In this document: in pieces, positions 88-15,953 of the stretch
Numbering within the stretch: the stretch's first letter is position 1
Layout: each line of letters opens with the position of its first letter
Source of the DNA: Burkholderiales bacterium
GTDB taxonomy: Bacteria > Pseudomonadota > Gammaproteobacteria > Burkholderiales > Casimicrobiaceae
NCBI GenBank assembly: GCA_020852555.1
Contig: JADZAQ010000159.1
Span: 1-51,851 of the forward strand
Reading direction: 5' to 3'
DNA: 51,851 nt
Notes under the pieces: model-generated
The model's database searches: none
What the model saw: only the letters and a program-made list of their open reading frames with translations
Told to the model about the DNA's origin: nothing
Translations under genes and position numbers: made by a program

Positions 88-1320
88 CTACACCAACGTG
101 TACTCGCGCGCGAACGTCGCGCGGATCGCCTCGCGCGCCAGGCCGAAGTCGTCGAGCGCGTATGCGTGGCGCTCGCGTCTGCGCTTCGCATCGTCGGCGA
201 GGAAGCGCGCGACCGCGGCATCGACACCCTGCTGCGGCAGCGCGAAGTGCTCGAGAATCGCGTGCACCGTCGCGGCCGGTCGGGCGACGAGATCGTCGTA
301 GCGCACGTCGATGAAACGCGGGGCAGACGCCGGCCAGCGCTCGCGCACGGCATGCCCCGCGGCGAACATCCGCGGCAGGTTGCGCATGAGCTCGCGGCCG
401 ATCGCGTGCCCGTCCTGCACTGGCGTGACGAGGCGCCGCAGCGCGATCGTCAGCGCGCACATCGACGGCAATACCGCGAGCGGATCGCGATGCATGAAGA
501 CGACCCGCGCATCGGGATACGTCGTCAGCAGTTCCGCGAGCGACGCCATGTGCACGGGGGCTTTCAGCACCCAGGTGGCCGGGGGCGCGGCGAACGAGAG
601 CACCTGCAAGTGCCGCCGGTGCCATTCGTAGGCGTGCGCGAAGCGACTCGCGTACAGGTAGTCGTGATACGCGACGCTCGGGAAGAACGTCGTGAAGAGC
701 AGCGCGCGGAACGACGACATCAGGAGCGGATTGCACTCCTCGGGCAGCATCGCGCCGATCGGGTGCGCGAGCGGCAATCCGGGCGAGAGCCGGTTCGCAA
801 AGCCCGTCGCCGCCTTCGCGTAGCGCACCTGCGCTTTCACCTGGCGCTTGCCGGCGACCGCCGGCGGCACCGGGGTGAGGTCGGTCTCCCAGCGCAGCGG
901 CGTACGCAATCCGGGTTGCGCCGCGAGCAGTCCCTGCAGCAGGGTCGTGCCGGTGCGCGGCAGGCCCAGGATGAAGATCGGCGCGACGATCGGGAGGGCG
1001 GCGATCGCCGGGTGCTCGGTCAGCGCCTGCGTGATGAAGAGCCGGTTCTTGAGACTCGCCACCACCATCTGGAAGAAGAGTTGGCGGCCGGCCTCGTCGG
1101 CACCCGACACCTCGCGAAACTCGCGCAGCAGGAGTTCGAGCGCGTCGGTGAATTCGTCACCGCCCAGATCGTCGAGCCGCGCTTCCTTGCGCGCGGTGGC
1201 GATGAGGTGCCCGGCATCGAGCTCGGCGCCGCGCCAGCCCAGCCTCGACGCGAAGTGCAGGCCGCGGTTCCACGGCCGGCGCCACCAGACGGGGCGGTCG
1301 AAGGCGGCGGCCGAGCTCAC
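88..1320 (-). CDS. Sulfotransferase family protein (Sulfotransfer_3-like)
   Basis: This 410-residue protein probably transfers sulfate from PAPS to a hydroxyl group. The sequence shows the 5'-phosphosulfate-binding loop FILGLPRTGTTLLQGLL (about residues 116-132, with PRTGTT at 121-126). Further on, RVVFMHRDPLAVLPSM matches the 3'-phosphate-binding region of the family. It starts with GTG at 1320, and that codon overlaps the stop of the upstream glycosyltransferase (GTGA), so the two are probably translationally coupled. It is the last gene of the synthase operon, which suggests it modifies the operon's product. The acceptor cannot be read from sequence. No signal peptide or clear membrane segment is visible, so it is probably cytosolic. 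Confidence 0.85.
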   Translation of the reverse strand: MSSAAAFDRPVWWRRPWNRGLHFASRLGWRGAELDAGHLIATARKEARLDDLGGDEFTDALELLLREFREVSGADEAGRQLFFQMVVASLKNRLFITQALTEHPAIAALPIVAPIFILGLPRTGTTLLQGLLAAQPGLRTPLRWETDLTPVPPAVAGKRQVKAQVRYAKAATGFANRLSPGLPLAHPIGAMLPEECNPLLMSSFRALLFTTFFPSVAYHDYLYASRFAHAYEWHRRHLQVLSFAAPPATWVLKAPVHMASLAELLTTYPDARVVFMHRDPLAVLPSMCALTIALRRLVTPVQDGHAIGRELMRNLPRMFAAGHAVRERWPASAPRFIDVRYDDLVARPAATVHAILEHFALPQQGVDAAVARFLADDAKRRRERHAYALDDFGLAREAIRATFAREYTLV

Positions 1321-2471
1321 CGCGCCAGCACCTCGAGGATGGCGCGGGCGGCGGCGGGGGCGCCGCCGGCGTCGCGAAACGACGCCGCCACGCGCTGTGC
1401 CGCGGACCGAAATCCCGCGCCGTCGAGCACCGAGAAGACAGCCTCGTGGAGCGCGCGTGCGGCCACGCGATTCGAGCGTACGCGCACGCCAGCACCCGCA
1501 GTGACCACGAGTTCGGCGTAGATCGACTGCTCATGCGCCATCGGCGCGACCACGGCAGGTACGCCGAAGGAAAGCGCCTCGTTCACGATCACGCCGGCGT
1601 GACAGAGGATTGCATCCGTACGCGGCAGGAGGTCCATGAGCGGCAGCCAGGGACGGACGATGAAGTTCTTCGGTGGATCGCGCAGGAGATCGGGCGGCGT
1701 CCCGATCACCACCGTCACGTCCTCGTCGCGCAGCGCCTCGACGAGGCGGGCATAGAGCGGACGCACGCGCTCGGCGAAGAGAGTTCCGAACGAGACGACG
1801 AGCGTCTTGCGACCGGTCAGCCGTTCCCATGGGAATGCAACCGACTCCGCCCGATGAGCCAACGCCGGTCCCACGAAACGATAGCTCGCCGGATACGCCA
1901 CGGCGTCACCGGCGAGATAGCGCGAGGTGTAGATCAGCACGAGGTCCGGCGACAGGTCCGGGTGCGCCACCGGCACGAGGCCGATCTCGCGCTCCAGATT
2001 GGCGTAGAGGCCCGCTACCCACGCGGCGACCGCGGTGTACTGCGCGATGCGGTCGCGCAGCAACGACGCCGACGGCGCCGAGGTGACCCAGCGCAGGCGA
2101 TGCTTGCGCGCGACCAGCGCCGCGGCGATGGCTTGTTGATCGGCGATCACCACGTCCGGCCGAAAATCGGTCACCGCAGCCTCGACGATCGGGAGCATGT
2201 CGTGCGCCATCGGCACCAGAATGCGCTCGAACAGCGCCCGCATGCCCGCCAGCCATGGCGCGGCGGCGGCACGCCGCAGATCCGCCTCGGCAGCGACCAG
2301 CGTGGATTGCTGCACATCGTAGGCGCGCGCATCCGCTGCCAATAGCGGCCGCATCTGCGGATACGTCACCCAGGCGCACTCGTGCCCCGCGTCGGCGAGT
2401 TCCGTGGCGATCGATGCCGCCGGGTTCACGTGCGCCGCGAACGGCGGCACCACGAACAGGAACCGGCTCAT
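1317..2471 (-). CDS. GT1-family glycosyltransferase (UGT / macrolide glycosyltransferase type)
   Basis: This 384-residue glycosyltransferase has the GT-B fold pattern. The N-terminus, MSRFLFVVPPFAAHVNP, matches the acceptor-side start of MGT/UGT enzymes. The C-terminal domain carries the nucleotide-sugar signature CHAGVIVNEALSFGVPAV followed by VAPMAHEQ, equivalent to HxGxxxxxEAxxxGVPxxxxPxxxDQ. I chose the ATG at 2471 because homology begins there; the frame stays open upstream but reads as low-complexity sequence. Enzymes of this family glycosylate small lipophilic acceptors such as polyketides, carotenoids and lipids. The gene lies 61 bases downstream of a hydrolase and overlaps the sulfotransferase by 4 bases. 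I infer that it glycosylates the synthase product; sugar and acceptor are unknown. Confidence 0.85.
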   Translation of the reverse strand: MSRFLFVVPPFAAHVNPAASIATELADAGHECAWVTYPQMRPLLAADARAYDVQQSTLVAAEADLRRAAAAPWLAGMRALFERILVPMAHDMLPIVEAAVTDFRPDVVIADQQAIAAALVARKHRLRWVTSAPSASLLRDRIAQYTAVAAWVAGLYANLEREIGLVPVAHPDLSPDLVLIYTSRYLAGDAVAYPASYRFVGPALAHRAESVAFPWERLTGRKTLVVSFGTLFAERVRPLYARLVEALRDEDVTVVIGTPPDLLRDPPKNFIVRPWLPLMDLLPRTDAILCHAGVIVNEALSFGVPAVVAPMAHEQSIYAELVVTAGAGVRVRSNRVAARALHEAVFSVLDGAGFRSAAQRVAASFRDAGGAPAAARAILEVLAR

Positions 2472-2532
2472 CGAATGCGTGCTCCGTACCGGCGCCTCGC
2501 GGGCGTTCGGCGGTGGCGGCGTGCCCCACTGC

Positions 2533-3399
2533 TCACGAAACGAACTCCCGAACCGCCTCGACCACGCGCTCACGCACGAATTCGGTCGCGTGAAAGAGGA
2601 TCCCGTGCGCGCAACCGGGCACGATCACGAGCCGGCAGTGCGGCATGACGCCGGCGAGCCGCTCGCCCTCGGGACGCAAGTCCGATACCTCGCCGTAGAG
2701 CGCGAGCGTCGGGCAGGCGATGCGCGCGAGCGTCGCATCGTCGATCGGTGCGGTCCCGGTGAGGTCGCGCACGAAGGTCGTCTCGTCGCGCAGCCGCGTC
2801 GCGGTCTCGACCATCGGGCTGCGGCGGCGGCGCGCCAGACGTCCGGCGAACTTCGCGGTGGCGCGCCCGTCGGCGTCGAGGTCGTCGAGATCGACCGCAT
2901 CGAGGTCGACGTGACCGCGCGCGGCGTGCCTTGCGAGCCAGTCGCCGAACACCTCCTTGATCTTGCGATCGCGCGCCTCGCCCTCGAGCGCCATGCTGGC
3001 GCCGATCCGCGCGCCGATCTCGGCCACCCCCGACTGCGCATCGAGCAACACCAGCCCCTGCACGCGATCGGGGTGATCGGCCGCGAAGCGGAGCGCGACG
3101 TAACCGCCGAAGCTGTGGCCGACGACGATCACGCGCGACTCGCCGAGCGCCTCGACGATCGCCGCGAGATCGGCGGCCATCTCCTGTCCGGAATAGCCCG
3201 TAGCCGGCTGCTCGCTGCGGCCGTGGCCGCGCAGGTCGTAGAGCACGACGCGCGCGTGCTTCGCCACCTCGGGGGCGAGCGTCATGAAGAAGCTCGAGTG
3301 ATTGTCGAGCGGCAGGCCATGGACGAAGACGACCGCGGCCGCCCCTCGTCCCATGCGCAGGACATTGAAGCGAACGCCGCGGGCGAATACGTCAGCCAT
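2533..3399 (-). CDS. Alpha/beta hydrolase A of the synthase operon
   Basis: This 288-residue alpha/beta-hydrolase fold protein shows the oxyanion strand VVFVHGLP (residues 23-30), YDLRGHGRSE (54-63) and the nucleophile elbow GHSFGG with Ser96. The likely acid lies in YGEVSDLRPEGERL and the likely catalytic His in PGCAHGILF, so the triad looks complete. It starts 8 bases inside the end of the preceding hydrolase and is clearly its tandem paralogue (shared YDLRGHGRSE and GHSFG). Within a polyketide/lipid operon the natural guess is a type II thioesterase or product-releasing hydrolase, but the family is too broad to say. No export signal is visible. Confidence 0.85.
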   Translation of the reverse strand: MADVFARGVRFNVLRMGRGAAAVVFVHGLPLDNHSSFFMTLAPEVAKHARVVLYDLRGHGRSEQPATGYSGQEMAADLAAIVEALGESRVIVVGHSFGGYVALRFAADHPDRVQGLVLLDAQSGVAEIGARIGASMALEGEARDRKIKEVFGDWLARHAARGHVDLDAVDLDDLDADGRATAKFAGRLARRRRSPMVETATRLRDETTFVRDLTGTAPIDDATLARIACPTLALYGEVSDLRPEGERLAGVMPHCRLVIVPGCAHGILFHATEFVRERVVEAVREFVS

Positions 3400-4201
3400 C
3401 GCGCAGGAACGCCGTCACCGCCGCGGCGAACGGCGCCGCTACCTCGTTCAGCATGAGATGCCCGCACTCGAACATCCGCATCGTCGCGTCCGGCAGCACG
3501 GCAGCAAGACGCTTCCGCGTCGCCTCCATCGGCGGCAACGTGCGTGTGCCGTAGCAAAGCAGAACCGGACAATCGCAGCGCGCGATCTCGGCGTCGGGAA
3601 TGTCCTGGTCGTGCGCGAGGTCGGTGAGCAGCGCGGTGTCCTTCATGAGCGCCGACGTCCGCGAGCGCACGCGCCGCGTGCGCCGGCCCGTGCCGCGCAG
3701 CACGTCACGGGTCGCCGTGGGAAGGTGCGCCACGGCGTGCTCCTGCACGGCGAGGATGCTGGCGACCACCTCTTCGGCGTCCACCTCGACGAGCGCTGCC
3801 TCGTCGTCCTCGTCCTCGAGAAAGACCGGCAGCGGCCCCTCGGCGAAGACGAGCTTGCGCACGCGCCCTGGATGATCGAGCACGTAGCGCAGACCCACGA
3901 CGGCACCGAAACTGTGGCCGACGATGGCGAGCGGGCCGCTGGGCGCATAGCGCTCGACGATCGCCGCGAGGTCGCCCGCCATCGAGCGGATGCCGTAACC
4001 GGAAGGCGTCGCCTCGCTGCGCCCGTGCCCCCGCAGGTCGTACATGACGACACGGTGCTCGGCGGCGAGCGTCGGCGCGATGGTGAAATAGAAGCTCGCG
4101 AGCGAGGTCGTCATGCCGTGCACGAGCACCACCGTGCCCCGGTGCGGCTGACCGAGCGACTGGACGTGCAGGCGGACGCCGGCTATCGACTCGACTGGCA
4201 T
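3392..4201 (-). CDS. Alpha/beta hydrolase B of the synthase operon
   Basis: This is a 269-residue alpha/beta hydrolase. Seen in order are VVLVHGMT (24-31), YDLRGHGRSE (54-63), GHSFGA with nucleophile Ser97, and a C-terminal FECGHLMLNEV with the candidate catalytic His. The position where hydrolase A has an Asp (YGEVSD) reads YGTRTLPP here, so the usual acid is not obvious. The cap region contains an acidic run (EDEDDEAALVEVDAEEV). The ATG at 4201 lies inside the end of the ACP gene (19-base overlap), and homology begins exactly there. It is probably an intracellular esterase, thioesterase or acyltransferase-like enzyme acting on the ACP-bound or released product. The exact reaction is unknown. 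Confidence 0.83.
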   Translation of the reverse strand: MPVESIAGVRLHVQSLGQPHRGTVVLVHGMTTSLASFYFTIAPTLAAEHRVVMYDLRGHGRSEATPSGYGIRSMAGDLAAIVERYAPSGPLAIVGHSFGAVVGLRYVLDHPGRVRKLVFAEGPLPVFLEDEDDEAALVEVDAEEVVASILAVQEHAVAHLPTATRDVLRGTGRRTRRVRSRTSALMKDTALLTDLAHDQDIPDAEIARCDCPVLLCYGTRTLPPMEATRKRLAAVLPDATMRMFECGHLMLNEVAAPFAAAVTAFLRDG

Positions 4202-4479
4202 GCGGCAACGTAGTCGACGAGCTGGCCGACGGTGAGCGCGATGATCTCTTCGAGCTCCATACCGGAGAGCCAGCTCGGAAAATCGACCGCCTCGCCATAA
4301 CGTGCCTGGATCTTCTCCGAGAGCGCCACGAGCTCGATGCTCTCGACCTCGAGATCGGCGACGAAGCTCGTCTCCATGGTGATCGGCGTCTCGCGCACCC
4401 ATTCCTCGCCGATCACTTCCTCGATCATCGCGGTGATGTCGGCAAGTATCGTGGCCTTGTTCTCTTCGAGCGTGCTCAT
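4183..4479 (-). CDS. Stand-alone acyl carrier protein
   Basis: This is a 98-residue acidic protein with the ACP helix II motif ADLEVESIELVALSEKI. Ser47 in VESIEL is the expected 4'-phosphopantetheine attachment site. The N-terminus (MSTLEENKATILADITAMI) and the C-terminal stretch TVGQLVDYV are typical carrier-protein helices. The ATG overlaps the stop codon of the upstream synthase gene (ATGA), so translation is coupled. The motif differs from the SIDSIKRIEI motif of the ACP built into the large synthase. The two carriers may therefore have separate duties, for example starter loading or hand-over of the finished chain. The PPTase domain fused to the neighbouring synthase could activate it. 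Confidence 0.92.
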   Translation of the reverse strand: MSTLEENKATILADITAMIEEVIGEEWVRETPITMETSFVADLEVESIELVALSEKIQARYGEAVDFPSWLSGMELEEIIALTVGQLVDYVAACQSSR

Positions 4480-7400
4480 AGGGGGGTCCAGGCGATGATG
4501 TAGTCGGAATGGCGGCGGGTTGCGATCCAACGGCCGTTGACGCGCACGCGCTCGCCGTCGAGCGCCTCGACCACGAACCGCTTCGGCGCGTGCGCGAGCC
4601 CGGTACCCGCGGCCTTGCCGGCAGCCTCCTTGGCGGCCCACAGGCGGGTGAGCGTCTCGTCGCGGTCGCCGCCGGTGACGAGTACCAACTCGGCGGGCGA
4701 AAACGCGATGCCGGCAAAGCCCTCGCCGCGCGCCTCGATCTTCTCGATGTCGATGCCGGGCGTCACGCCTTCGGCGGCCAGCGCGACGCCGATCGCGTCC
4801 TTGTGCGCGATCGAGACGCGCACGTCGGCCCCCGACGGCACGCCGACCAGCGGCTCGCCGTTCGGCCCGGTGTCGATCGCGACCTCGATGGGGAACAGGT
4901 GTGCGCCGCCGCGCTCGCGTACGAGGCGCCGCACCGCATCCTTCGCAGCGATGCGCCCCAGAAGCCATTGCCGCTCGCGTTGCAGCTTCTTGATCCCGCC
5001 GGAGGCGTCTAGCTCGCGCTTCGAGTTGAAGCGGCGGGCGAGGAAGTCGATGGTGACGCTGCGCCAGCCCGGATCGGTGAGCATCGCGACGCCATGCTCG
5101 TCGAAGGTCGCCAACAGATATTCGCTGGGTTGCCGGATGACCTCGTAGATCCCGCCCGCCGTCTCGAACCGCCAGTCCTCCCAGCCGGTGATGCGGCAGT
5201 ACACATGATCGCCCTGCACCAGCTCCAGATCGGCGCGCACCTCGCGGCGGCCGAAGCGGCGCGAGCGTACCGTGCATTCGATGGACGTCCCCGGCGCCGG
5301 ATCGGGGCTGAAGAATTCGACCCGATCGATGCGCACCGGCATTGCCAGCCGATCCTCGTCGGCGCTGGCGACGACCCACAGCCCGTACACCTGCCCCGCG
5401 GCGTCGAGCAACGCGCCCTTGCCGGGAAGCGCGATCAGCGTCCCCCGCAAGCCGCCGGCACCATGGTCGCGCAGCGCGACCACGCCCTGGTACTGCGGGC
5501 CGTGGAAGAGCCAGCCGTCCCGATAGATGCGATCCATCGGCACCGGGAACGGCTGCGCGTCGGCGAGCGGTTCGGCCGATGGCGTCGGCGCCGCGGGGTA
5601 GCGCTCCGCCATCGTCACCGTGCCCTCGACGTAGCCCTCGATCTTGACCCGGATGCGGTGGGCGTCGAGGCGCGTCGCCACGACGTCGACGGTCACCGCC
5701 GGCTCGACGTACAGCCACGAGCTCGCGAGCACGTCCTCGACGACGACCGGCGTACGCGCCGGATCGAGACGCTGCGCCGCGTCCCTGAGCAGCGCGATCG
5801 ACATCGTCATCGGCACCGTCGGCGCGCGGTCGATCGGTTCGCGCCACCCCGGCGGCTGCGGCACCAGCGAGTGATCGATGAGCTCGGGATAGGTGGCGAG
5901 CGAGAGCTCGAGGCGATCGGTGCGCGTGGTGGGCGCCTCGGCGACCGCTGCCCGCGCGGCCCGCCCGGGCTGCGGACCCGGCCGCCGCTGCGTGAACGCC
6001 GCGACGACCGCCGCGTGCGCCGCGGCGAGCTCGCGCATGCTCTCGTCGAAAGCCGCCGCCACCCGGTGGCCGGCCGCCGCCGGCGTTACCGTCGGCGGCG
6101 CCAGCGCGCTGCGCAGCGGCGGCACCTCGACGCGGATCAGCGGCGCGCCGAGCTCGAGCGCCACCGTGCCGCGCGCCACCGGTCGGGATCCCTTCGCGGC
6201 AAGACCCACGCGAGCGAGATCGACGGGCGCCCCTTCCACGTAAAGTGCGGCGCAGGCGCGGCGCAACTGGTCCATCCCCGGGTGCTGCGCGGAGACGACC
6301 GAGATCGCGTGGTGCGGCTGCCCCGCCAGCACGTCGTCGACGAATGCGGTGAGGCTCCCGGTACCCACCTGCACGAACACCCGGGCCCCCGCCGCGTACA
6401 GCGCGAGGATCGTCTCGCGAAAGCGCACCGGCTGCACCAGGTGGTCGAGGAAGAGCTGCGCGATCGCCCGCGGATCCGCGGGATACGGCGCGCACGTCGT
6501 CGCCGACCACAGCGGCCGCTCGGGGGCGCGCAACGCGACCGTGGCCAGCGCGCCGGAATAGAAATCGAGATGCGGAGCGAGCGCGGGTGAATGGAAGCCC
6601 GAGCGAAACGGCAGCAACTCGAAGAGGATGCGTGCCTCGCGCAAACGCTCGCGCGCACGCGCCACCGCCGCCGGCGGCCCGCACACGATGGATTGGTGCA
6701 CGCAGTTGTCGTGGGTGATCACCATGCCGGGGATGCCAGCGACGAGCTCGCCCACCCGCGCGGCACCCGCACCGACCGCGAGATACTCGAGGTCGGCCAC
6801 GCGCAGCATCCCGGGCCGCAGGCTCGCGATGAGGTCGCGCAACGACTCACGCTCGAACATCCCCGCCGCGAGCATGCCCGACCATTCGCCGATGCTGTGA
6901 CCGGCGATCAGGTCAGGACGCACGCCGAGCGCCGCCAGCACGTCGGTCAAGAATGCATTGAGCGCGAAGACCTGGAAGCCTTGCTGCTCCAGGTTGGGCG
7001 ATTCCACTTCGGGCGCGGGCAGATCGAAGTGGCGCGCGATGTCGGCGACCTTCGGCGCGAATGCCGCCTCCACACCCGGATAGAGAAACGCCACCTTGCC
7101 GCCGCCGGCGGCGAGCCCTTCGGGCGAGAAGTACAGCCCGTCGCGGCCGCGGCGCGGACGCCCGGCCTGGATCGCTTGCACCGCGCTTTCGACGCGCCTT
7201 GCCGTGGGTGCGATGAGCGCGACACGGCAGCGACCCTCGCCGCCGCTCACTCCCGCCGCCACCGCCGCGGCGAGGTCGGCGCAGGTCGGCGCCGCCGCGA
7301 CCAACGCACCATGGCCGTCGTGACCTGCCGGCCCGCGCCTCGCACTGCGTCGCGGGGCCTCCGGCGCATCGACGATGACGTGCGCATTGATGCCGCCGAA

Positions 7401-8726
7401 GCCGAAGGCGTTGACCGCGGCGCGCCGCAGCGCGGCGTCCCAGGGCTGCGCGGTGGCCAGCGCCCGAAAGCGCGTGCGCGCGAGTAGGGGATGCGGGTCG
7501 TCGCAGTGCAGCGTCGGCGGCAGGGTACCGTGGTACACGGCGAGCGTCGCCTTGACGAGACCCGCGGCGCCTGCCGCCGGCATCGTGTGGCCGATCATCG
7601 ATTTCACCGACCCGAGCGGCACCCGTTCGCCGGTCGCCTCGCCGAAGATGCGGGCGAGCGTGGTGAGCTCGGCCGCGTCGCCAGCGGCGGTCGCCGTGCC
7701 GTGCGCCTCGACGAGACCCACCGTCGCCGGATCGAGCGCAGCGTCGCGCCACGCGCGGGTGAGCGCCAGTACCTGGCCTTCGACCCCAGGCGCCATGAGG
7801 CCGGTATCGCGGCCGTCGCTCGACGTGCCGGTACCGCGAATGACGGCGTAGATGCGATCATCGTCGCGGCGCGCATCGGCAACGCGCTTCAGCACGAACA
7901 TGCCGATGCCTTCGCCGATCAGCAGTCCGTCGGCGGCACGGTCGAACGGGCGGATCTGCTGCCTCCGTGACAACGCCCCCAACTGCGAGAAGACGCTCCA
8001 GAAAGCGATGTCGTGGCACAGGTGGACGCCGCCGGCGAGCACCAGGTCCGACCTGCCTTCGCGCAGCTCGCGGACCGCGAGATCGACCGCGAGCAGCGCA
8101 CTCGCGCAGGCGGCATCGATGGTGTACGCCGAGCCCCCGAGGTCGAGGCGATTCGCGACGCGCGAGGCGAGGAGGTTCGGCACGAGGCCGATCGCCGCAT
8201 CGGCGTTGTAGGTGCCGCAGCGCGCCTGGAAGTCCTTCCTGATCGCCTCGATCTGCCCCTCGCCGAGGTCGGGGAGCAGCGCGCGCAGCGACTCCACCAG
8301 CTGCTGCGTGCCGCGCGTGACGTCGAGCATGCGCACCATGCGCGGGCCGAAATAATGGCCGCGTCCGACCACCACCGAGGTCGTCGCGCGCGCAAACGCG
8401 CGCTCCGCATAACCGGCGTCGGCGAGCGCATCGGCCGCCACCTGCAAGGTGAGCAATTGCTCCGGCTCGGTGGCCTTGGCCGCCGCGGGCATGATGCCGA
8501 ACTTGCCGGCGTCGAACCTCGCGAACTCGTCGATGAAGCCGCCGCGCCGCGCGTAGACGCGATCGGGCGCCGCCGAGGTGGGATCGTAGTAGACGGGATC
8601 CCAGCGCTGGGCCGGGACGTCGGTGATCGCATCGACGCCGGCCTCGATATTGCGCCAGAACGAGGTGAGATCGGGTGCGCGCGGGAACACGCACGCCATC
8701 CCGATGATGGCAACGTCGCGCTCCAT
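4476..8726 (-). CDS. Type I PKS / secondary-lipid synthase, KS-AT-DH-PPTase
   Basis: This 1416-residue multidomain protein starts at ATG 8726 (MERDVAIIGMACVFP). The first domain is a ketosynthase (about 1-430) with active-site Cys207 in TIDAACASALLAV and both His motifs (VEAHGTATAAGD, SVKSMIGHTMPAAG). An acyltransferase follows (about 530-850; GHSIGEW, Ser611; GFHSPALAPH). A PS-DH/hotdog dehydratase-like region comes next (about 935-1230; LIDHSLVPQPPGW and FHGPQYQGV). The C-terminus is a Sfp-type phosphopantetheinyl transferase (about 1240-1416; GIDIEKIEAR and RLWAAKEAAGKA). The ketosynthase keeps its Cys, so it is not a chain-length-factor copy. A C-terminal PPTase fusion is known from enediyne PKSs, and this one could activate the operon's carriers. 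It is the second gene of the operon, 40 bases after the larger synthase. Confidence 0.9.
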   Translation of the reverse strand: MERDVAIIGMACVFPRAPDLTSFWRNIEAGVDAITDVPAQRWDPVYYDPTSAAPDRVYARRGGFIDEFARFDAGKFGIMPAAAKATEPEQLLTLQVAADALADAGYAERAFARATTSVVVGRGHYFGPRMVRMLDVTRGTQQLVESLRALLPDLGEGQIEAIRKDFQARCGTYNADAAIGLVPNLLASRVANRLDLGGSAYTIDAACASALLAVDLAVRELREGRSDLVLAGGVHLCHDIAFWSVFSQLGALSRRQQIRPFDRAADGLLIGEGIGMFVLKRVADARRDDDRIYAVIRGTGTSSDGRDTGLMAPGVEGQVLALTRAWRDAALDPATVGLVEAHGTATAAGDAAELTTLARIFGEATGERVPLGSVKSMIGHTMPAAGAAGLVKATLAVYHGTLPPTLHCDDPHPLLARTRFRALATAQPWDAALRRAAVNAFGFGGINAHVIVDAPEAPRRSARRGPAGHDGHGALVAAAPTCADLAAAVAAGVSGGEGRCRVALIAPTARRVESAVQAIQAGRPRRGRDGLYFSPEGLAAGGGKVAFLYPGVEAAFAPKVADIARHFDLPAPEVESPNLEQQGFQVFALNAFLTDVLAALGVRPDLIAGHSIGEWSGMLAAGMFERESLRDLIASLRPGMLRVADLEYLAVGAGAARVGELVAGIPGMVITHDNCVHQSIVCGPPAAVARARERLREARILFELLPFRSGFHSPALAPHLDFYSGALATVALRAPERPLWSATTCAPYPADPRAIAQLFLDHLVQPVRFRETILALYAAGARVFVQVGTGSLTAFVDDVLAGQPHHAISVVSAQHPGMDQLRRACAALYVEGAPVDLARVGLAAKGSRPVARGTVALELGAPLIRVEVPPLRSALAPPTVTPAAAGHRVAAAFDESMRELAAAHAAVVAAFTQRRPGPQPGRAARAAVAEAPTTRTDRLELSLATYPELIDHSLVPQPPGWREPIDRAPTVPMTMSIALLRDAAQRLDPARTPVVVEDVLASSWLYVEPAVTVDVVATRLDAHRIRVKIEGYVEGTVTMAERYPAAPTPSAEPLADAQPFPVPMDRIYRDGWLFHGPQYQGVVALRDHGAGGLRGTLIALPGKGALLDAAGQVYGLWVVASADEDRLAMPVRIDRVEFFSPDPAPGTSIECTVRSRRFGRREVRADLELVQGDHVYCRITGWEDWRFETAGGIYEVIRQPSEYLLATFDEHGVAMLTDPGWRSVTIDFLARRFNSKRELDASGGIKKLQRERQWLLGRIAAKDAVRRLVRERGGAHLFPIEVAIDTGPNGEPLVGVPSGADVRVSIAHKDAIGVALAAEGVTPGIDIEKIEARGEGFAGIAFSPAELVLVTGGDRDETLTRLWAAKEAAGKAAGTGLAHAPKRFVVEALDGERVRVNGRWIATRRHSDYIIAWTPL

Positions 8727-8766
8727 CACGCGTCCACTTCCATGCGATCCCCCGCAACCGCCGCGA

Positions 8767-11700
8767 TCAGGCCATCGCTCCGGGATCACCGCGCATGAGG
8801 ATGACCTGCGCGCGGGTGGCCGAGCCGTGCAAGAGCTCGTCGAGGAAGCTCGCCACTCCGGCGGCGGGCTCGATCAATCCGATGCCACGTCGCGCGTATT
8901 CGCGCTCGAGTTCGGGTGACATCATGCCGGTGGCGCCCCAGGGTCCCCAGTTGATGGAAACGACGCGCCCCTCGAGCACTCCATTGAGCTTGACCGCGAG
9001 CCGGTCGAGGAAGTCGTTGGCCGCGGCGTAATCCGCCTGCCCGCGACTGCCGAACGTCGAGGCGATGCTCGAGAAGAACACGATGAAGCCGATGTCGGGC
9101 CGCACGCTGCGGGCGATCGCCAGCGCGCCATTCACCTTCGTCTCGAAGACACGCGCGAACGAATCGGGTGTCTTGTCGCGGGCGAGCTTGTCCTCGATCA
9201 CGCCGGCGCCGTGGATCACACCGTCGAGGCGGCCATGGCGCGCGTACAGGTCCTCGATGAGCCGCCCGAGGGCGGCGCTGTCGCGCACGTCGAGCTGGTG
9301 ATACGCGACCTTCGATCCGGCCGCCGCGAGCGCCGCCATGGTCGAGCGCACCTCGCGCTCGGCGAGCACGCGCGCGCAGGCGGCCTCGATCTCGGCCGGC
9401 GTCTTCAGCGTGCCGCGAGCGATCAGCGCCTGTCGTACCGCGCGCGCATCGCGGGCCGCGACGAGATCGTCGGGCTCCGCTGCGGCCGGCAGCGGCGTGC
9501 GGCCGACGAGCTCCAAGCGGCAGCCGAAGCGCTCGGCCAGGGCGAGCGCCACCGCCGCGGTGATGCCCCGGGCCCCGCCCGTGATGAGGACCACCGAATC
9601 GGCGTCGAGGCTGACCGGCTTCTTGAAAGAGACATCGTGGGGATCGTGACCCGCGGCGGCTGCCGTGCCGTGGGGTCGATCGTGGCCATGCTCGCCACCG
9701 GTGCCGAGACTCGCCCGCACGATCCGTGGCCGCACGCGCTCGCCCTCTTCCGAGTAACCGACCTCACCGGCATCGTCGATGACGTTGAGTTCGCCCACGA
9801 GTCGCGCCGCGAGTTCCGGATCCGCCAGACGCGACGCGAAATTGGCGACGCGGATCTGCCGGTCGGGCCACTCCTTGCGCAGACTCTTGATCATCCCGGA
9901 CACTCCGCCAGCCGACGGATGCCCGTCGTCGCTCATCGGCGCCGGGTCGCTCGCCAGGTAGCCGTTGGCGGTGCCGGCCACGAGGACGTGGCTCGCGCCT
10001 TGCACCAGCGCGTCACGCACCCGCCGGAAGAGCGCGGGGACGTCATCCGCCCGCCAGTCGGAACGCAACGGCGTGAGGTCGACCAGCGCTTCGGTGGTGA
10101 TCGTCGTCGCGCGGTCGGCCACCACGGTGGTGGCGGTGCCGGCTGCGGAGAGCTCGCGCGCCAGCAGCGCATCGAGTTGCGGTATGCCGCCGACGATCGA
10201 GATGGCGCGATCGGCGAGTCCCCATTCGCGCGCGCGCTCGGCCGCCGGTGTGAGTTCGACGACGTAGCGATCGACTCCCGGCGCAATGGCACCTTCGGCG
10301 CCGGGGGCGGCATCCCCACCGCCGGGCAGCGCGACGGTCGCCGATACCTGCGCCGTCACCGCAATCGTCGCCGCGCCGCCCACGAGCGGCGCGAGGCTGT
10401 CGACGATGCCGCGCAGGGTCTTCACGGCAACCAGGTCTTCCGGAAGCTCGGCGGGCGCGTCGCCCGCCGACCCGCGCAGGCGCTCGGCGACGGCGCCCAG
10501 GATCTCGATCCGCTTGATCGAGTCGATCGACAGGTCCGCCTCCAGATCGAGGTCGAGATCGAGCATCTCCAGCGGATAGCCGGTGCGCTCGCTCACGATC
10601 GCGAGCAACGTCGCCTCGATGTCGAGCGGCCCGGCCGCCGGGATGGTCGACTCGATCTCGGCGGCGACGTCGACCGTGATCGCGGTGAGTGCCGGGATCG
10701 CCGCTTCCACGCGCGCGGCGGAAGCCCCGGCGTCGTCATGCACCAGCGGCGCGGCGCCAGGATCGCTGCCCAGGTACGAGAGCATCACGCGACGCTGGGC
10801 ATCGACGAGTTCGCGCACGTTGCGCAGGTAGTCGAGCACGGCGACATCGCGCTCCTCCGCGGGTCGCGCAACCTCGTGCGCCGCCGCGACGGCGATCGGC
10901 TCGACGATCGGCCGCAACGCATGGGCCGGTGGCTCACCGCGCATCGGCCACGCCCGCTGCCCGTTGACCCACCACGCGCTCGCCGAATGACGCGGCGCCG
11001 GCGGCGCATCGAGCGAAAGCTGCGCGATATCGCGCCGTGCGAACAACGCGTCGCCGTCGACGGGTACCCCGTGCACCGCGAGCTGGCCGAGCGCCAGCAG
11101 GAACTGCACGATGGCGTTTTCGCCGGGGCGATCGCAGGCAATCGCCACGTGCGGCCGCTTGCCGAGGATGCGTCCGACGAGGCCGGTGAGCACGCGCCCC
11201 GGGCCCGCCTCGACGAAGATGCGCGCACCGGCGGCGTACATCGCCTCGATCTCGGCCGCGAAGCGCACCGGCTCGCCGATGTGCCGCGCGAGGAGATCGC
11301 GGATGGCCGCCGGCTCGGTGGGATACGTGCTGCCGCTGGTATTCGCGTAGACCGTGATCGCCGGAGGGGTCACCTCGACGGCGGCGAGGTCGCGCGCGAA
11401 TGCGGCGCAGGCGCCGCGCACCAGCGGGCTGTGGAAGGCGCAGGCCACCGGGATCGGCTTGGCGGCGATGCTCGCCGCGAGGAGCTTCTCCACCGCCGCG
11501 GCCACCGCATGCTTGGGGCCGGAAATCACCGATTGCTCGGGCGAATTCTCGTTGGCGATCACCACCCCGTCGACGTCGGCGATCGCCGCGGCGATGGTGT
11601 CGCGATCGGCGGCCACCGCGGCCATCGTCCCCGCATCGTCGGCATCGGCGCAGGCCTCGAGGATTCGGCGCCCACGCAGCGCGGACAGCTCCGGCAGCGC

Positions 11701-14700
11701 CGCCTCCGGCAAGGCACCGGCGACGGTCAGCGCGACGAGTTCGCCGTAGCTGTGGCCGGCGACCAGGTCGGGTCGCACGCCCAACTGCCGCAGGAGACTC
11801 GCCACCGCGAGCCCGGCGATGCCGAGCGCGGGCTGCGCCGCGCGCGTATCGGTCAGTGCCGCCTGCTGCGCCTGCTCACCCTCCGGGGTCCACGCGGTGG
11901 GCGGAAAGACGAGGCCCTGCCACGGTGCGCCCTGCTCGAGATAGCGCTGCAGTTCGGGAAAGGCGACGAAGAGCTCGCCCAGCATGCCCACGCGCTGCGA
12001 GCCCTGCCCCGGAAAGACGAACGCGAGCTGCGCGTCGGCAGCCGGTTCGGGTGAGGCCAGGAAGACACCCGAGTTCTGCGCCTTCCCCTCGCGGGCGGCG
12101 GCGATGCGCTTGCCGAGATCGTCGGTATCGCGCGCGACGAGCGCGATCTGCACGCGCTCACGACCTTCCCCGGCGGCGCGCGCGAGCTCGGCGAGCGACC
12201 ACTCGCCGGTCGCGGCGATGCGCGCGAGACGCTCGGCGCGGGCCAGCGCGGCAGCGCGATCCACTCCGCGGATGAGGAAGAGCTCCGCGGGCCAACGCGT
12301 GACGCCGACCTTCGTCGCCTCGACGTCGTGCGATGCCAGCACCACGTGGAAATTGGTTCCACCGAAACCGAAGGCGCTGACCCCCGCATACCGACGACCG
12401 GCCGGCCACGGTCTCGCCACCGGCGACATGACGAACGGCGAGGCCGGAGTCCAGCCGGGATTGGGCTGCGTGATGTTGAGAGTCGGCGGCAGGACCCTGC
12501 GCTGCAGTGCGAGCGCCGCCTTGACGAGCCCCGCCACACCCGCGGCACATTTCGTGTGGCCGATCTGCGACTTGACCGAACCGAGCGCGATCGACGCGGC
12601 CGGTACGCCGGCGCCGCCGAAGAAGCGATTGAGCGTCTCGAGCTCGGTGCGATCACCCACCACCGTACCGGTGCCGTGCGCTTCGACGAGGCCCACGTCG
12701 CGCGGTGACACGCCGGCACGCCGGTACGCGCGCTCGAGGGTGCGCTGCTGCCCCTGCGCGCGCGGCGCGGTGAGGCCGAGACTCTTGCCGTCGCTCGCCC
12801 CGCCGACACCCTTGATCACCGCGTAGATGCGATCGCCGTCTCGCTCAGCATCGGCGAGACGCTTCAGCACGATCGCCGCCACGCCCTCGCCGAGGGCGAT
12901 GCCGTCGGCAGCGGCGTCGAAGGTGCGGCACTGGCCGGTGGACGAGAGCGCGTGCACGCTCGAGAAGGCGAGGTAATCGACGATGCTGTTGTGCATGTCG
13001 GCGCCACCGCACACCACCATGTCGCTGCTGCCGGCGACGAGCTCCTTGCAGGCGACGTCGACCGCGGCCAGCGACGACGCGCACGCGGCGTCGACGGTGT
13101 AATTGCTGCCGCCCAGATCGAGGCGATTGGCGACCCGGCCGGCGATCACGTTGGCGAGGATGCCGGGGAACGAATCCTCGGTCATCGACGGCAACGCTTC
13201 GGCGAGTTGCGGCGGCAGTTCCCCGACGTATTGTCGCCACAGGGCGCGGAAGCCATACGCGCTCGCGAGATCGGTTCCCGCCTCGGCACCGAAGATCACC
13301 GCGGCCGCGTCACGATCGAATTCGCGGCCCCCGACGCCGTACCCCGCATCGTCGAGCGCGCGCCGCGACGCCTCGAGGGCAAGCAACTGCACGGGCTCGA
13401 TCGCCGCGAGCGAGCGCGGCGGAATGCCGTAGGGCAACGGATCGAACGGGTACGGATCGAGAAACCCGCCCCACTTCGACGGCGTCATCTCGCCGCTGGT
13501 CGAGGTGGGATCGAAGAACGTCGCGGCGCGCCAGCGCTCGGCGGGAACCTCGCGAATGCTGTTGACGCCGTGCACGATGTTCGACCAGAACGTCTCGAGA
13601 TCCGGCGCCCCGGGCATGATCGCGGCCATGCCGACGATGGCGACGTCGTGGATGCGCGCGGTCGCTGCCGGCTCGTCGAGCAGCGGCAGCGCGGCAAGCT
13701 GCGCCACGCCGCCATCGGCCACGTCGCGGTGCAACTCGGCCACCGGCAGCACGGCATCCCGCAGCGCCGCGACCTGGCCCAGCATGACCATGCCCTCGCG
13801 CCGCTGCACGTCGGCGTCGACGTCGACCAGTGCGCCGCCTTCGCGCGTGATGCCCTTGGCGGCGATGCGCAACCGTCCGAGGTTCAATTCCTCCAATTGC
13901 TGCCACATCGTCTGTGGCGCCACGCCTTCCGTCTGCAAGCGCGCGCGCTCGCGCTGGAACATGCGCACGTACCCGGTATCGGCGCAACGCGTGGCATGTC
14001 CCGGCGCGGTCTCGAGCAGCACCGTCGCTGCGCAGGTGATTGCCGCCTCCTGGAATGCGGGCTGGATCGCGCCGCAGGCGACCGCTTCGGCGGAGAAGAG
14101 GTACGCGGTGCCGAGCAGCACGCCGACCGCGGCGCCGCGCGCCACGAGCGGTGCCGCCAGCGCCGCGACCATCGCCGCCGAGCGTGCGTCGTGAATGCCT
14201 CCCGCGAAGACCACTTCGAGGTCGTCGCACGACGGCTGCGCGAGCAGGCGTTCGACCTGCAGTTCCCACAATGCGAAGCTGGTGCGCGGACCGACGTGCC
14301 CGCCGCACTCGGAACCTTCGAACACGAACTTGCGCGCGCCCTGCTTGAGGAAGAGATCGAGGAGCCCGGGTGACGGCGTGTGCAGGAACGTGCTCGTACC
14401 CGCGTCCTCCAGCGGCTTCGCTTGCGCCGGGCGCCCGCCGGCGATGAGTGCGACCGGCGGCTTCCACTTCAGGACCGCCGCGAGCTGCTCGTCACGCAGC
14501 GCCTGCGGGACGAACCCGAGGATGCCCACCCCCCAGGTCTTGCCGGCGAGCCGCTGCGCAGCTTCGGCGAGCAGCGCGTCGACCTCGTCGCCGCGCATCA
14601 AGGCCAGGGAAAGGAAGGGCAGCGCGCCGGCGTCGGCAACCGCGGCGGCAAACGCCGGCCGATCGGACACCCGCGTCATCGGACCCTGGAAGATCGGGTA

Positions 14701-15585
14701 GCGCAAACCGTAGCGTAGGGCGAGCGGTCCACCCGCGGCCAACGCCCGTTGCTCACGGGCGGCCGTGAGATCGCGATCGATGGCGCCGACCAGACCACGC
14801 ACGATGCCGCCGGTGCTGCGAAAGCGCGCGGCGAGCGGGCGGGCAAAAGCGGCATCCTGACCGGCCGGCAGGAGTTCCCGGTGCAGATCGCGCGCGCCGA
14901 GGCACGCGGCGACGCCGCGCGCGGCGATCTCGCGCAACGGCAGGTCCGGTCGCGTGTACACGCGATGACCGTCGACGAGCGTGGTCTCGCTGCCGTCCAT
15001 CGCCGCCAGCGCGGCCTTGACGTCGGGACCGAGCGTCGATTCCTGCGTGAGTGCGAGTTGCGCATCGAGAACCACGCCGGCGGCGCCACCGGCGATACAC
15101 GCCGCCGCGGTCCGCAGGCCGATGCCGCCCTGCGCATAGATCGGGATCGATAGCTCGCGCGCCAGCGCCTGCAACAGCACGAACGTCGTTTCGCCGCCGA
15201 CCCGGCCGCCGCTCTCGGTGCCCTTGGCGATGATCGCGCTCGCGCCGGCAGCCACCGCGGCGCGCGCTTGCCCGAGGTCGGTGACCTCGACGACGACGGT
15301 GCGACCGGACCAGGGTGCGATCGCCGCGCCGGCCTCGACGATCACGGTATCGACGGCCGACGGCAGTTCCGCCGCGGCGAGCGCCACGCCGGTCGGAATG
15401 CGCACGCCGACCCCGGCAACGCTGCCGCCTTCGAGCGCGCGCAACGCCTCCCGATTGTCGCGGACGTTACGACCCAGCCCGACGACGCCGAGCGCACCCG
15501 CCCGCGCGGCGGCGATGGCCATGGCCGCATTCGGTTGCTCGAACGGCGTGACGACGACGACTCGGAACGACATGCGCTGCTGCAT
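8767..15585 (-). CDS. Giant synthase: flavin barrel x2-KS-AT-ACP-KR
   Basis: This 2272-residue first gene of the operon begins with two tandem TIM-barrel domains of the nitronate monooxygenase/FabK/PfaD type. They span about residues 1-270 (GTESGGRVGGE) and 285-600 (FEGSECGGHVGPRTSF). A ketosynthase follows (about 645-1070; Cys835 in VDAACASSLAAV; His motifs VEAHGTGTVVGD and SQIGHTKCAAG). An acyltransferase comes next (about 1150-1450; GHSYGEL, Ser1279; ACAFHSP). One ACP carries SIDSIKRIEI (Ser1689), the carrier motif of PUFA-type synthases. A ketoreductase ends the protein (about 1990-2250; LITGGARGIT, HGAGVIEDKL, FSSIAS, YAAANDFLD). PfaD is the enoyl reductase of PUFA synthases, so the barrels probably supply that step. 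The ATG at 15585 has AGGGGT about 4 bases upstream; ATG 15573 and the far ATG 15639 are alternatives. Confidence 0.9.
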   Translation of the reverse strand: MQQRMSFRVVVVTPFEQPNAAMAIAAARAGALGVVGLGRNVRDNREALRALEGGSVAGVGVRIPTGVALAAAELPSAVDTVIVEAGAAIAPWSGRTVVVEVTDLGQARAAVAAGASAIIAKGTESGGRVGGETTFVLLQALARELSIPIYAQGGIGLRTAAACIAGGAAGVVLDAQLALTQESTLGPDVKAALAAMDGSETTLVDGHRVYTRPDLPLREIAARGVAACLGARDLHRELLPAGQDAAFARPLAARFRSTGGIVRGLVGAIDRDLTAAREQRALAAGGPLALRYGLRYPIFQGPMTRVSDRPAFAAAVADAGALPFLSLALMRGDEVDALLAEAAQRLAGKTWGVGILGFVPQALRDEQLAAVLKWKPPVALIAGGRPAQAKPLEDAGTSTFLHTPSPGLLDLFLKQGARKFVFEGSECGGHVGPRTSFALWELQVERLLAQPSCDDLEVVFAGGIHDARSAAMVAALAAPLVARGAAVGVLLGTAYLFSAEAVACGAIQPAFQEAAITCAATVLLETAPGHATRCADTGYVRMFQRERARLQTEGVAPQTMWQQLEELNLGRLRIAAKGITREGGALVDVDADVQRREGMVMLGQVAALRDAVLPVAELHRDVADGGVAQLAALPLLDEPAATARIHDVAIVGMAAIMPGAPDLETFWSNIVHGVNSIREVPAERWRAATFFDPTSTSGEMTPSKWGGFLDPYPFDPLPYGIPPRSLAAIEPVQLLALEASRRALDDAGYGVGGREFDRDAAAVIFGAEAGTDLASAYGFRALWRQYVGELPPQLAEALPSMTEDSFPGILANVIAGRVANRLDLGGSNYTVDAACASSLAAVDVACKELVAGSSDMVVCGGADMHNSIVDYLAFSSVHALSSTGQCRTFDAAADGIALGEGVAAIVLKRLADAERDGDRIYAVIKGVGGASDGKSLGLTAPRAQGQQRTLERAYRRAGVSPRDVGLVEAHGTGTVVGDRTELETLNRFFGGAGVPAASIALGSVKSQIGHTKCAAGVAGLVKAALALQRRVLPPTLNITQPNPGWTPASPFVMSPVARPWPAGRRYAGVSAFGFGGTNFHVVLASHDVEATKVGVTRWPAELFLIRGVDRAAALARAERLARIAATGEWSLAELARAAGEGRERVQIALVARDTDDLGKRIAAAREGKAQNSGVFLASPEPAADAQLAFVFPGQGSQRVGMLGELFVAFPELQRYLEQGAPWQGLVFPPTAWTPEGEQAQQAALTDTRAAQPALGIAGLAVASLLRQLGVRPDLVAGHSYGELVALTVAGALPEAALPELSALRGRRILEACADADDAGTMAAVAADRDTIAAAIADVDGVVIANENSPEQSVISGPKHAVAAAVEKLLAASIAAKPIPVACAFHSPLVRGACAAFARDLAAVEVTPPAITVYANTSGSTYPTEPAAIRDLLARHIGEPVRFAAEIEAMYAAGARIFVEAGPGRVLTGLVGRILGKRPHVAIACDRPGENAIVQFLLALGQLAVHGVPVDGDALFARRDIAQLSLDAPPAPRHSASAWWVNGQRAWPMRGEPPAHALRPIVEPIAVAAAHEVARPAEERDVAVLDYLRNVRELVDAQRRVMLSYLGSDPGAAPLVHDDAGASAARVEAAIPALTAITVDVAAEIESTIPAAGPLDIEATLLAIVSERTGYPLEMLDLDLDLEADLSIDSIKRIEILGAVAERLRGSAGDAPAELPEDLVAVKTLRGIVDSLAPLVGGAATIAVTAQVSATVALPGGGDAAPGAEGAIAPGVDRYVVELTPAAERAREWGLADRAISIVGGIPQLDALLARELSAAGTATTVVADRATTITTEALVDLTPLRSDWRADDVPALFRRVRDALVQGASHVLVAGTANGYLASDPAPMSDDGHPSAGGVSGMIKSLRKEWPDRQIRVANFASRLADPELAARLVGELNVIDDAGEVGYSEEGERVRPRIVRASLGTGGEHGHDRPHGTAAAAGHDPHDVSFKKPVSLDADSVVLITGGARGITAAVALALAERFGCRLELVGRTPLPAAAEPDDLVAARDARAVRQALIARGTLKTPAEIEAACARVLAEREVRSTMAALAAAGSKVAYHQLDVRDSAALGRLIEDLYARHGRLDGVIHGAGVIEDKLARDKTPDSFARVFETKVNGALAIARSVRPDIGFIVFFSSIASTFGSRGQADYAAANDFLDRLAVKLNGVLEGRVVSINWGPWGATGMMSPELEREYARRGIGLIEPAAGVASFLDELLHGSATRAQVILMRGDPGAMA

Positions 15586-15953
15586 AAGACCCCTGCCAAC
15601 GACGAAGGAAACCACGGTCCGGCGCAAACCGGAATGCAATTTCGGGACGTGCCGGAACCGCTATGTTTCCGCAACTGCAATAGTACCGAAACTAGCCGTC
15701 TCCGTGCAGTGGGAAACCCCGATCTTGCCCCGTAAAACCAGAGGGTTGTGACGCACCGGCCACGCCGCCGGGAGCCCCGGTGCCGCCGCTTCCGCCGGAC
15801 CCTCGCCGCACCAGCACACGGCGACGACCGATGTCCGCACCCTCCTGGTGCGAGGCGCATCCGATGCGTGGCGGCGCGCCGCCGACGAACTGCCCGCCCC
15901 GATCGAACTGTCGACAGCGATTCGTAGCCTACGACTCCACCGCCCTCCGGGAG
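15586..15953. other. Intergenic region between greA and the synthase operon
   Basis: This 368-base gap should hold the end of the carA-carB-greA transcript and the promoter of the synthase operon. An AT-richer stretch at about 15660-15745 stands out from the surroundings. On the minus strand it contains TACTAT (15680-15685), a possible -10 box about 95 bases before the synthase start, but no convincing -35 box lies at the right distance. A 14-base palindrome, ggcggcgcgccgcc, is at 15870-15883. No terminator with a T-run was seen after greA, so read-through into the synthase operon is possible. No gene was recognised. Confidence 0.4.

Follow-up and report, generated by a model that had tools for sequence, protein, structure and literature searches.

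The window analysed here is a stretch of 51,851 nt (positions 1 to 51,851 of contig JADZAQ010000159.1, GenBank assembly GCA_020852555.1) from a Burkholderiales bacterium of the Casimicrobiaceae. At its left end lie seven minus-strand genes (88-15585), which an initial annotation, made from the sequence alone, had described as an operon with overlaps at four of six junctions, predicted to make an undescribed tailored lipid or polyketide. Gene calls and junction arithmetic agree on this layout, and Pfam and NCBIfam name the enzymes claimed for it: ketosynthase (KS), acyltransferase (AT), ketoreductase (KR), dehydratase (DH), acyl carrier protein (ACP), 4'-phosphopantetheinyl transferase (PPTase), hydrolases, a family 1 glycosyltransferase (GT1) and a sulfotransferase. 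The gene order is A, with two enoyl reductase (ER) barrels (ER-ER-KS-AT-ACP-KR), B (KS-AT-DH-PPTase), a free ACP, the hydrolases H1 and H2, an MGT-like GT1 glycosyltransferase (GT) and the sulfotransferase (ST). Reading frames overlap at B/ACP (4 nt), ACP/H1 (19 nt), H1/H2 (8 nt) and GT/ST (4 nt), while gaps of 37 and 61 nt separate A from B and H2 from GT. For A, which starts with ATG at 15585, alternative in-frame starts extend up to 15639. For GT, a GTG at 2573 is an alternative start; the equivalent of 2471 is the start of the matching frame in the related locus L011 (L and G numbers are our handles for loci and genomes).

8767..15585, minus strand: gene A, 2272 aa, fused pfaD-pfaA-like synthase, ER(predicted pseudo)-ER-KS-AT-ACP-KR (Pfam, NCBIfam, active-site residues, homologues)
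14716..15585 (boundary approximate), minus strand: first flavin mononucleotide (FMN)/nitronate monooxygenase (NMO) barrel of A, predicted pseudo-enoyl-reductase with Arg at the catalytic-His position (GGR) (Pfam)
13714..14709, minus strand: second FMN barrel of A, FabK/PfaD-like, ECGGH kept, predicted active enoyl reductase (TIGR03151, below cut-off)
12334..13647, minus strand: KS of A, Cys-His-His intact (Pfam, NCBIfam, residues)
11143..12030, minus strand: AT of A, GHSYG and ..FHS (Pfam, NCBIfam, residues)
10477..10611, minus strand: single internal ACP of A, LSIDSIKR (Pfam, motif)
8935..9594, minus strand: KR of A, K-S-Y-N intact, LDD-type Asp present (Pfam, residues)
4476..~8729, minus strand: gene B, KS-AT-DH-PPTase, fused pfaBC plus pfaE-like (Pfam, NCBIfam, motifs)
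5184..5876, minus strand: DH region of B, DH(S/C)..PQ...W His motif and LLDxxGQ Asp motif (PS-DH Pfam match, motifs)
4497..4757, minus strand: PPTase domain fused in B (PF01648, motifs)
4183..4479, minus strand: free ACP, 98 aa (Pfam, NCBIfam; L011 orthologue 94% identical)
3392..4201, minus strand: alpha/beta-hydrolase H1, GHSFG, candidate offloading or esterifying enzyme (Pfam, tree)
2533..3399, minus strand: alpha/beta-hydrolase H2, GHSFG, separate paralogue of H1 (Pfam, tree)
1317..2471, minus strand: GT1 glycosyltransferase, MGT/YjiC/OleI-like (UDPGT and EryCIII-like_C above cut-off)
88..1320, minus strand: sulfotransferase ST (Sulfotransfer_3), PRTGTT loop (PF13469, E = 3e-38; solved structures 2zq5 and 2z6v)

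Synthase core and tandem flavin barrels

Across 44 aligned A proteins, the KS Cys/His/His residues are present in all 44, the AT Ser/His pair in 43 (one gap), the ACP Ser in 42 (two gaps) and the KR Lys/Tyr/Asn residues in 41 (three gaps). Likewise, the motifs of B (KS triad, AT, DH His and Asp, PPTase) are kept in most of 21 aligned rows, 20 of them distinct as L014 and L096 are one cluster. Two assignments score weakly: the DH of B has a PS-DH match of about 110 residues around the LLDxxGQ motif (E = 1.2e-6), and the free ACP a PP-binding match just under the cut-off (E = 7.5e-4). Residue conservation backs both assignments, and the DH motifs are presumably catalytic. The earlier view of an iterative secondary-lipid synthase accompanied by GT and ST genes is upheld, as are the conserved catalytic residues of KS, AT, ACP, KR, DH and PPTase. 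In the actinobacterial locus L112, a single 3355-aa open frame (2023-12090) fuses A and B without the second KS.

According to passages of PMC13311796, the proposed catalytic His of FMN enoyl reductases lies in an xEAGGH motif. The second barrel of A, for which 5gvh is the nearest solved FabK, keeps this His in all 44 aligned A proteins and in 20/20 further loci (64/64). At the corresponding position of the first barrel, the 44 A proteins carry Arg (30), Trp (5) or another residue (9) and never His, which is also absent from 19/19 readable further loci (the 20th, L166, is gapped), that is, from 63/63 readable of 64. Since the first barrel lacks the His in every readable locus and the second keeps it, the tandem ER resembles a fixed pairing of pseudoenzyme and enzyme, with one dead and one live barrel, the Type P cousins described below included. 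Of the tandem flavin barrels earlier read as probable ER, one has the catalytic His and the other does not. Two related FMN enoyl-reductase barrels per synthase are also found in the ERb/ERc heterodimer of Schizochytrium, as described in the same passages; there, however, both barrels carry the His motif and are separate proteins, whereas in the window they are in tandem and the first is without His (PMC13311796). Loss of the first-barrel His across readable relatives would represent a clean case of a pseudoenzyme domain retained throughout a synthase family.

The synthase core fits an architecture that has already been described. Passages of PMC13291983 report a fused pfaD-pfaA and a fused pfaBC-PPTase gene in Aquimarina and Flavobacterium, with close likeness to the Renibacterium cluster. 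Renibacterium is in turn listed, with Actinosynnema, Frankia and Streptomyces avermitilis, among the Type M secondary-lipid synthases, without a product, in the part of Shulse & Allen (2011) available to us. Gene A fuses pfaD and pfaA homologues (NMO barrels-KS-AT-ACP-KR) in the layout given in PMC13291983, B is a fused pfaBC homologue with PPTase in which no chain length factor (CLF) was found, and close relatives of A occur in Streptomyces. The differences from Type M, by description only, are the Burkholderiales host, the two hydrolases and the sulfotransferase at the end. An unprecedented layout was rejected, as the core fits the described Type M-like architecture; for the seven-gene layout as a whole, no characterised cluster turned up among the literature matches listed.

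Type P (ars) synthases, which in the same partial source include those of Beijerinckia and the Azotobacter phenolic-lipid synthase (Shulse & Allen 2011), are a second point of comparison (Azotobacter vinelandii; Beijerinckia indica listed). As in the window, one protein spans barrels, KS, AT, ACP and KR, and a PPTase gene is nearby. Moreover, Beijerinckia and Methylosinus belong to the sister group of the window clade in the A tree. Their loci differ in carrying 3-oxoacyl-ACP synthase III-like genes, a separate PPTase gene and ABC/efflux genes; type III polyketide synthase (PKS) genes, a Type P trait, are absent from the seven operon genes. The Beijerinckia locus also has an annotated glycosyltransferase, and neither the Beijerinckia nor the Methylosinus loci gave an ST profile match. 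The polyunsaturated fatty acid (PUFA) synthase PfaABCDE and the heterocyst glycolipid (hgl) synthases share the iterative KS, AT, ACP, KR, DH and FMN-type ER, but the window has one ACP rather than a tandem array and other fusions, and no second KS or CLF was found in B. With 933.2 bits against TIGR02813 (cut-off 1010.1) and a single SIDSI-type ACP motif, the synthase falls outside the canonical PUFA family.

Conservation of the operon and spread of the family

A conserved block of all seven genes was found in three genomes: besides the window, L011 (A 84% identical) and L012 (A 64%) carry them in the same order, directly after carB-greA, indicating that the operon is more than chance. As these two other metagenome-assembled genomes have the operon at the same site, a contig artefact was rejected. 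Gene A was found in 3/64 genomes of the family, all within one genus, and its tandem-barrel region, among 300 sampled genomes of the order, in that of the window alone.

This tandem-barrel region was used as family marker. At E 1e-40 it was detected in 97/343 Streptomycetales and 10/398 Pseudomonadota genomes, the window's genome among the 10, and at 1e-60 in 8/296 genomes from the phylum of L014, 22/278 from the order of G1283 and 6/279 from the family of G777. The family is widespread, as the Streptomycetales count illustrates; Type M was without a product in the 2011 listing.

Sixty-four loci, window included, were tabulated. A GT lies beside the synthase in 45 of them, and the 19 without GT include contig-end cuts (L088, L091, L156, L157, L158, L169). 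The order A-B-ACP-H1-H2-GT occurs at 7/64 loci (window, L011, L012, L109, L153, L164, L167), and A-B-ACP-hydrolase-GT in 20/20 fetched Streptomycetales regions. An S-adenosylmethionine (SAM) methyltransferase gene follows downstream in 19 of these 20 (not L073; 17/20 on the cluster strand) and in L095. Four clusters from the window's class, which we take to be Gammaproteobacteria in GTDB, show A-B-ACP-GT-H1 (L086, L170, L171, L172), followed by an LCM-like methyltransferase gene, a weakly condensation-like gene (E = 0.028, below cut-off) and HlyD. An extension of L086, L118, adds an ABC ATPase with LolD, MacB and heterocyst DevA scores (all below cut-off) and an FtsX permease; an outer-membrane efflux gene is also present in L117/L118. 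HlyD, ATPase, permease and efflux genes suggest that the product of L086/L117/L118-type clusters would be exported.

The KS tree (93 rows, quick method, Shimodaira-Hasegawa-like approximate likelihood ratio test support) places 44 A-KS and 35 B-KS on separate sides of one branch (97, starred), with 14 other KS (PKS, enediyne, cyanobacterial) outside both groups. The window A-KS groups with Streptomyces and other actinobacterial relatives, in a tree without any named Type M member. In the A tree (44 proteins, midpoint root, also a quick run), the window clade comprises 34 rows (100, starred), and a GT was seen in 31 of these, the exceptions being L088 (a contig-end cut), L096 and L113. Its sister consists of Methylosinus, Beijerinckia and G810. 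Within the tree, the three Burkholderiales sequences join actinobacterial sequences in a group of 31 rows whose support of 93 is under the starred level, and G777, G703 and G356 lie outside this group. The hydrolase tree, a careful run that carries a long-branch warning, separates H1 and H2 as two clades (100/99, starred); Streptomyces hydrolases group with H2 and those of G777 with H1, while both types are found in G1283 and the window.

Tailoring genes and the proposed product

We consider it fairly probable that the operon encodes a Type M-like iterative synthase producing a very long, mostly reduced hydroxyacyl chain, which is then glycosylated and sulfated. Gene content, gene order, conserved catalytic residues and family relationships form the observed basis of this reading. 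A and B would constitute one iterative PUFA-synthase-like (Type M-like) secondary-lipid megasynthase, in which the PPTase fused in B would activate both carrier proteins, the free ACP and the one inside A. Elongation of a malonyl-derived chain would fall to the two KS-AT pairs, and the KR of A, the DH of B and the second ER barrel of A would reduce it, some cycles probably stopping at the hydroxyl, to give a (hydroxy)acyl chain that is very long and mostly saturated. In the tandem ER, the first barrel would be a catalytically dead partner, probably folding against the active one. Release or re-esterification of the chain would be the task of H1 and/or H2. The MGT-like GT would put a sugar on a hydroxyl, and ST, using 3'-phosphoadenosine-5'-phosphosulfate (PAPS), would sulfate the sugar or the chain, yielding an anionic amphiphilic glycolipid. 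We infer chain length, reduction pattern, sugar, sulfation site, step order and product location from the genes, and glycosylation and sulfation are likewise assigned to the chain itself by inference. Support comes from Beijerinckia, sister in the A tree and listed as Type P, since the characterised Type P product is a long phenolic-lipid chain (in the available part of Shulse & Allen 2011). Also in favour of this reading are the domains and conserved residues, the seven-gene block in L011 and L012, the frequent GT beside the synthase and its match to solved glycosyltransferases, the ST genes at or near 12/64 loci, and the CysD gene close to the ST of L090. As the core usually has a free ACP, a hydrolase and a GT beside it, and the last enzyme can be exchanged (methyltransferase or sulfotransferase), the family would offer a testable glycolipid pathway.

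The GT belongs to GT1, as its Pfam UDPGT score of 50.3 bits exceeds the gathering score of 19.5. Against TIGR01426 (MGT) it reaches 185.8 bits (E = 1.2e-54), below the cut-off of 260, and it is called MGT-like only for this reason. The motifs PPxxxHxxP and HxG..E.L..xxP......(D/E)Q, presumably the His and donor-site motifs of GT1 enzymes, are present in six aligned GTs, and the enzyme matches solved YjiC and oleandomycin glycosyltransferases. Its NCBIfam matches include macrolide-inactivating and self-immunity glycosyltransferases, all below cut-off. Together with the variability of ST across the family, this leaves a small chance that GT and/or ST do not tailor the lipid, GT serving self-protection or scavenging and ST another metabolite, and that the operon makes a free very-long-chain acid. 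On the other hand, GT is a frequent partner of the synthase (45/64 loci) and even lies between core genes in the A-B-ACP-GT-H1 lineage, and 4 nt are shared by the GT and ST frames, all of which argues for tailoring.

The gene set of the Streptomyces relatives (synthase, free ACP, hydrolase and GT, in most cases also a SAM methyltransferase) brings a further product type into consideration. In passages of the review PMC4365757, the fattiviracins and cycloviracins of Streptomyces and Kibdelosporangium are acylglucose dimers on long trihydroxy fatty acids (C22-C28 and C23/C26 in a table) that carry further glucose, and the non-cyclic sugars of cycloviracin are methoxylated. The hydrolases might accordingly join two glycosylated hydroxyacyl chains head to tail into a macrodiolide, a fattiviracin/cycloviracin-like macrocyclic glycolipid decorated by the methyltransferase in Streptomyces or the sulfotransferase here. 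We regard this as unlikely: single-chain products fit just as well, and the examined passages that name fattiviracin or cycloviracin give no gene cluster. A more speculative proposal, likewise unlikely, is that fattiviracin/cycloviracin-type compounds have their missing pathway family in the window operon and its numerous relatives in Streptomyces and elsewhere in the actinobacteria, with the Burkholderiales swapping the methyl cap for sulfate and all relying on the pseudoenzyme/enzyme ER pair.

The window ST scores 132.7 bits against Sulfotransfer_3 (gathering score 27), placing it in that family, and has PRTGTT (PAPS-loop-like) and HRDP motifs. It aligns across residues 38-405 to 2zq5 (E = 3e-40) and 2z6v (E = 4e-38), which we take to be mycobacterial Stf proteins. 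A profile found ST genes at or near 12/64 loci. In the window, L011, L012, L092, L111 and L113 (a partial match in L113), the gene stands further downstream within one run of genes; in L091 it is upstream on the same strand; and in L087, L089, L090, L093 and L153 its orientation is convergent or divergent. Profile matches were confirmed by Pfam, and the STs of L011 and L012 by similarity to that of the window; at several loci, the positions of CysD, ST and neighbour genes come from a simple gene picker based on GC content. No profile match was found in 24 Streptomyces-type loci (the 20 Streptomycetales regions plus L018, L022, L095 and L114), most of which have just 2-4 kb past GT. The ST of L093 is ACP-fused and CurM-like, matching the CurM ST structure 4gbm and also 4gox at E ~1e-53, whereas that of L153 is closest, weakly, to tyrosine sulfotransferases, with 4gox among the matches. 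Because the three STs compared with solved structures are of different sequence types, it seems that the family acquired sulfotransferases on more than one occasion.

CurM and Ols sulfate a beta-hydroxyl, after which decarboxylative elimination follows. By analogy, ST could sulfate the ACP-bound chain at its beta-hydroxyl, and elimination triggered by a hydrolase would then yield a terminal alkene rather than a sulfate. As in CurM/Ols systems, an ST and alpha/beta-hydrolases are next to a polyketide-type synthase, here with ST and thioesterase-like hydrolases in one operon; in L093, a distant relative, a CurM-type ST with a fused ACP is encoded near the synthase; and H1 matches the solved 'polyketide synthase' hydrolase 3qit (E = 1.9e-11, 15th among the matches listed), presumably the CurM thioesterase. 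Nevertheless, we judge this route very unlikely. By sequence type the window ST is 2zq5/2z6v-like and not CurM/Ols-like, 3qit is not in the best 60 matches listed for H2, and the gene that ST overlaps is GT, not one for an ACP or a hydrolase. A CurM-type assignment of the window ST was rejected, the match to the 'polyketide synthase' ST 4gox being limited to the PAPS loop (E = 0.0016).

Several points weigh against the favoured reading of a sulfated glycolipid. The 12/64 count of loci with an ST gene is a raw one with no background rate set beside it, and ST is an in-operon seventh gene at 3/64 loci, in one small Burkholderiales clade. The initial annotation had counted homologues consistently lacking GT and sulfotransferase as contrary evidence: GT is well represented, whereas ST comes close to such an absence. 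B of L111 is without the DH and PPTase parts, the second KS is missing in the actinobacterial relatives L110 and L112, and the PPTase motif of L074 is altered and looks broken. Moreover, there is no exporter gene within the seven-gene operon, and GT and ST could act on other substrates.

Other sulfur-related genes adjoin some relatives. In the first 4.3 kb of L089 and L090, an ST is accompanied by a sulfatase-family gene (L089) or CysD (L090) next to a related synthase; this CysD, a sulfate-activation gene (sulfate adenylyltransferase), lies two predicted genes from ST. A type I phosphodiesterase-like gene is found downstream in L089. At 1689-2978 of L093, the ACP fused to a CurM/Ols-type sulfotransferase sits beside a distant synthase relative, where olefin-forming chain termination is possible.

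Flanking sequence and genomic site

Upstream of the operon, the identities of carB and greA were confirmed by NCBIfam, and one further feature separates greA from A:

15586..15953, minus strand: greA-A intergenic region, 368 bp, possible promoter or leader

A block of ~60 bp in this region is highly similar in the window and L011 and is possibly a regulatory element (promoter or leader). A sigma-70 consensus scan of the region gave no site (0.7 expected by chance). GC content is 0.712 in the operon, 0.661 in carB-greA and 0.686 in the remaining window, and this composition does not settle the direction of transfer. Window positions 15954-44945 hold housekeeping genes: greA, carB, carA, fur, and genes for argininosuccinate synthase, malate synthase, NADH dehydrogenase subunits and isopropylmalate synthase. 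Several neighbour genes at the loci examined matched no Pfam family.

Eighteen greA-bearing loci of the genus were obtained (from 18/22 genomes), and in four of them (L121, L122, L123, L124) the operon is present, in full or as a trace. A yhbY-like gene starts 574, 728 and 878 bp past greA in L125, L127 and L136, too close for the operon, and an rlmE-like gene is next in L125 and L127 (NCBIfam name, below cut-off). The yhbY label is not family-backed (no family match at 1e-20), and the remaining 11 greA loci gave no yhbY match within ~1.5 kb past greA. This spacing at operon-free loci points to a site between greA and yhbY-rlmE, occupied in one subgroup. Directly after greA in L139 (G049:C302), a lone 392-aa open AT (4624-5802), 65% identical to the AT of A, is probably a relic of a lost operon.

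As the window starts at contig base 1, nothing 3' of ST is visible there, which is why a gene for a Y_Y_Y/Ig-like domain protein that lies downstream of ST in L120 (11552-14053) and L011 (from ~25660) is unseen in it. The Y_Y_Y-domain gene of L012 has a counterpart in L011 at 56% identity.

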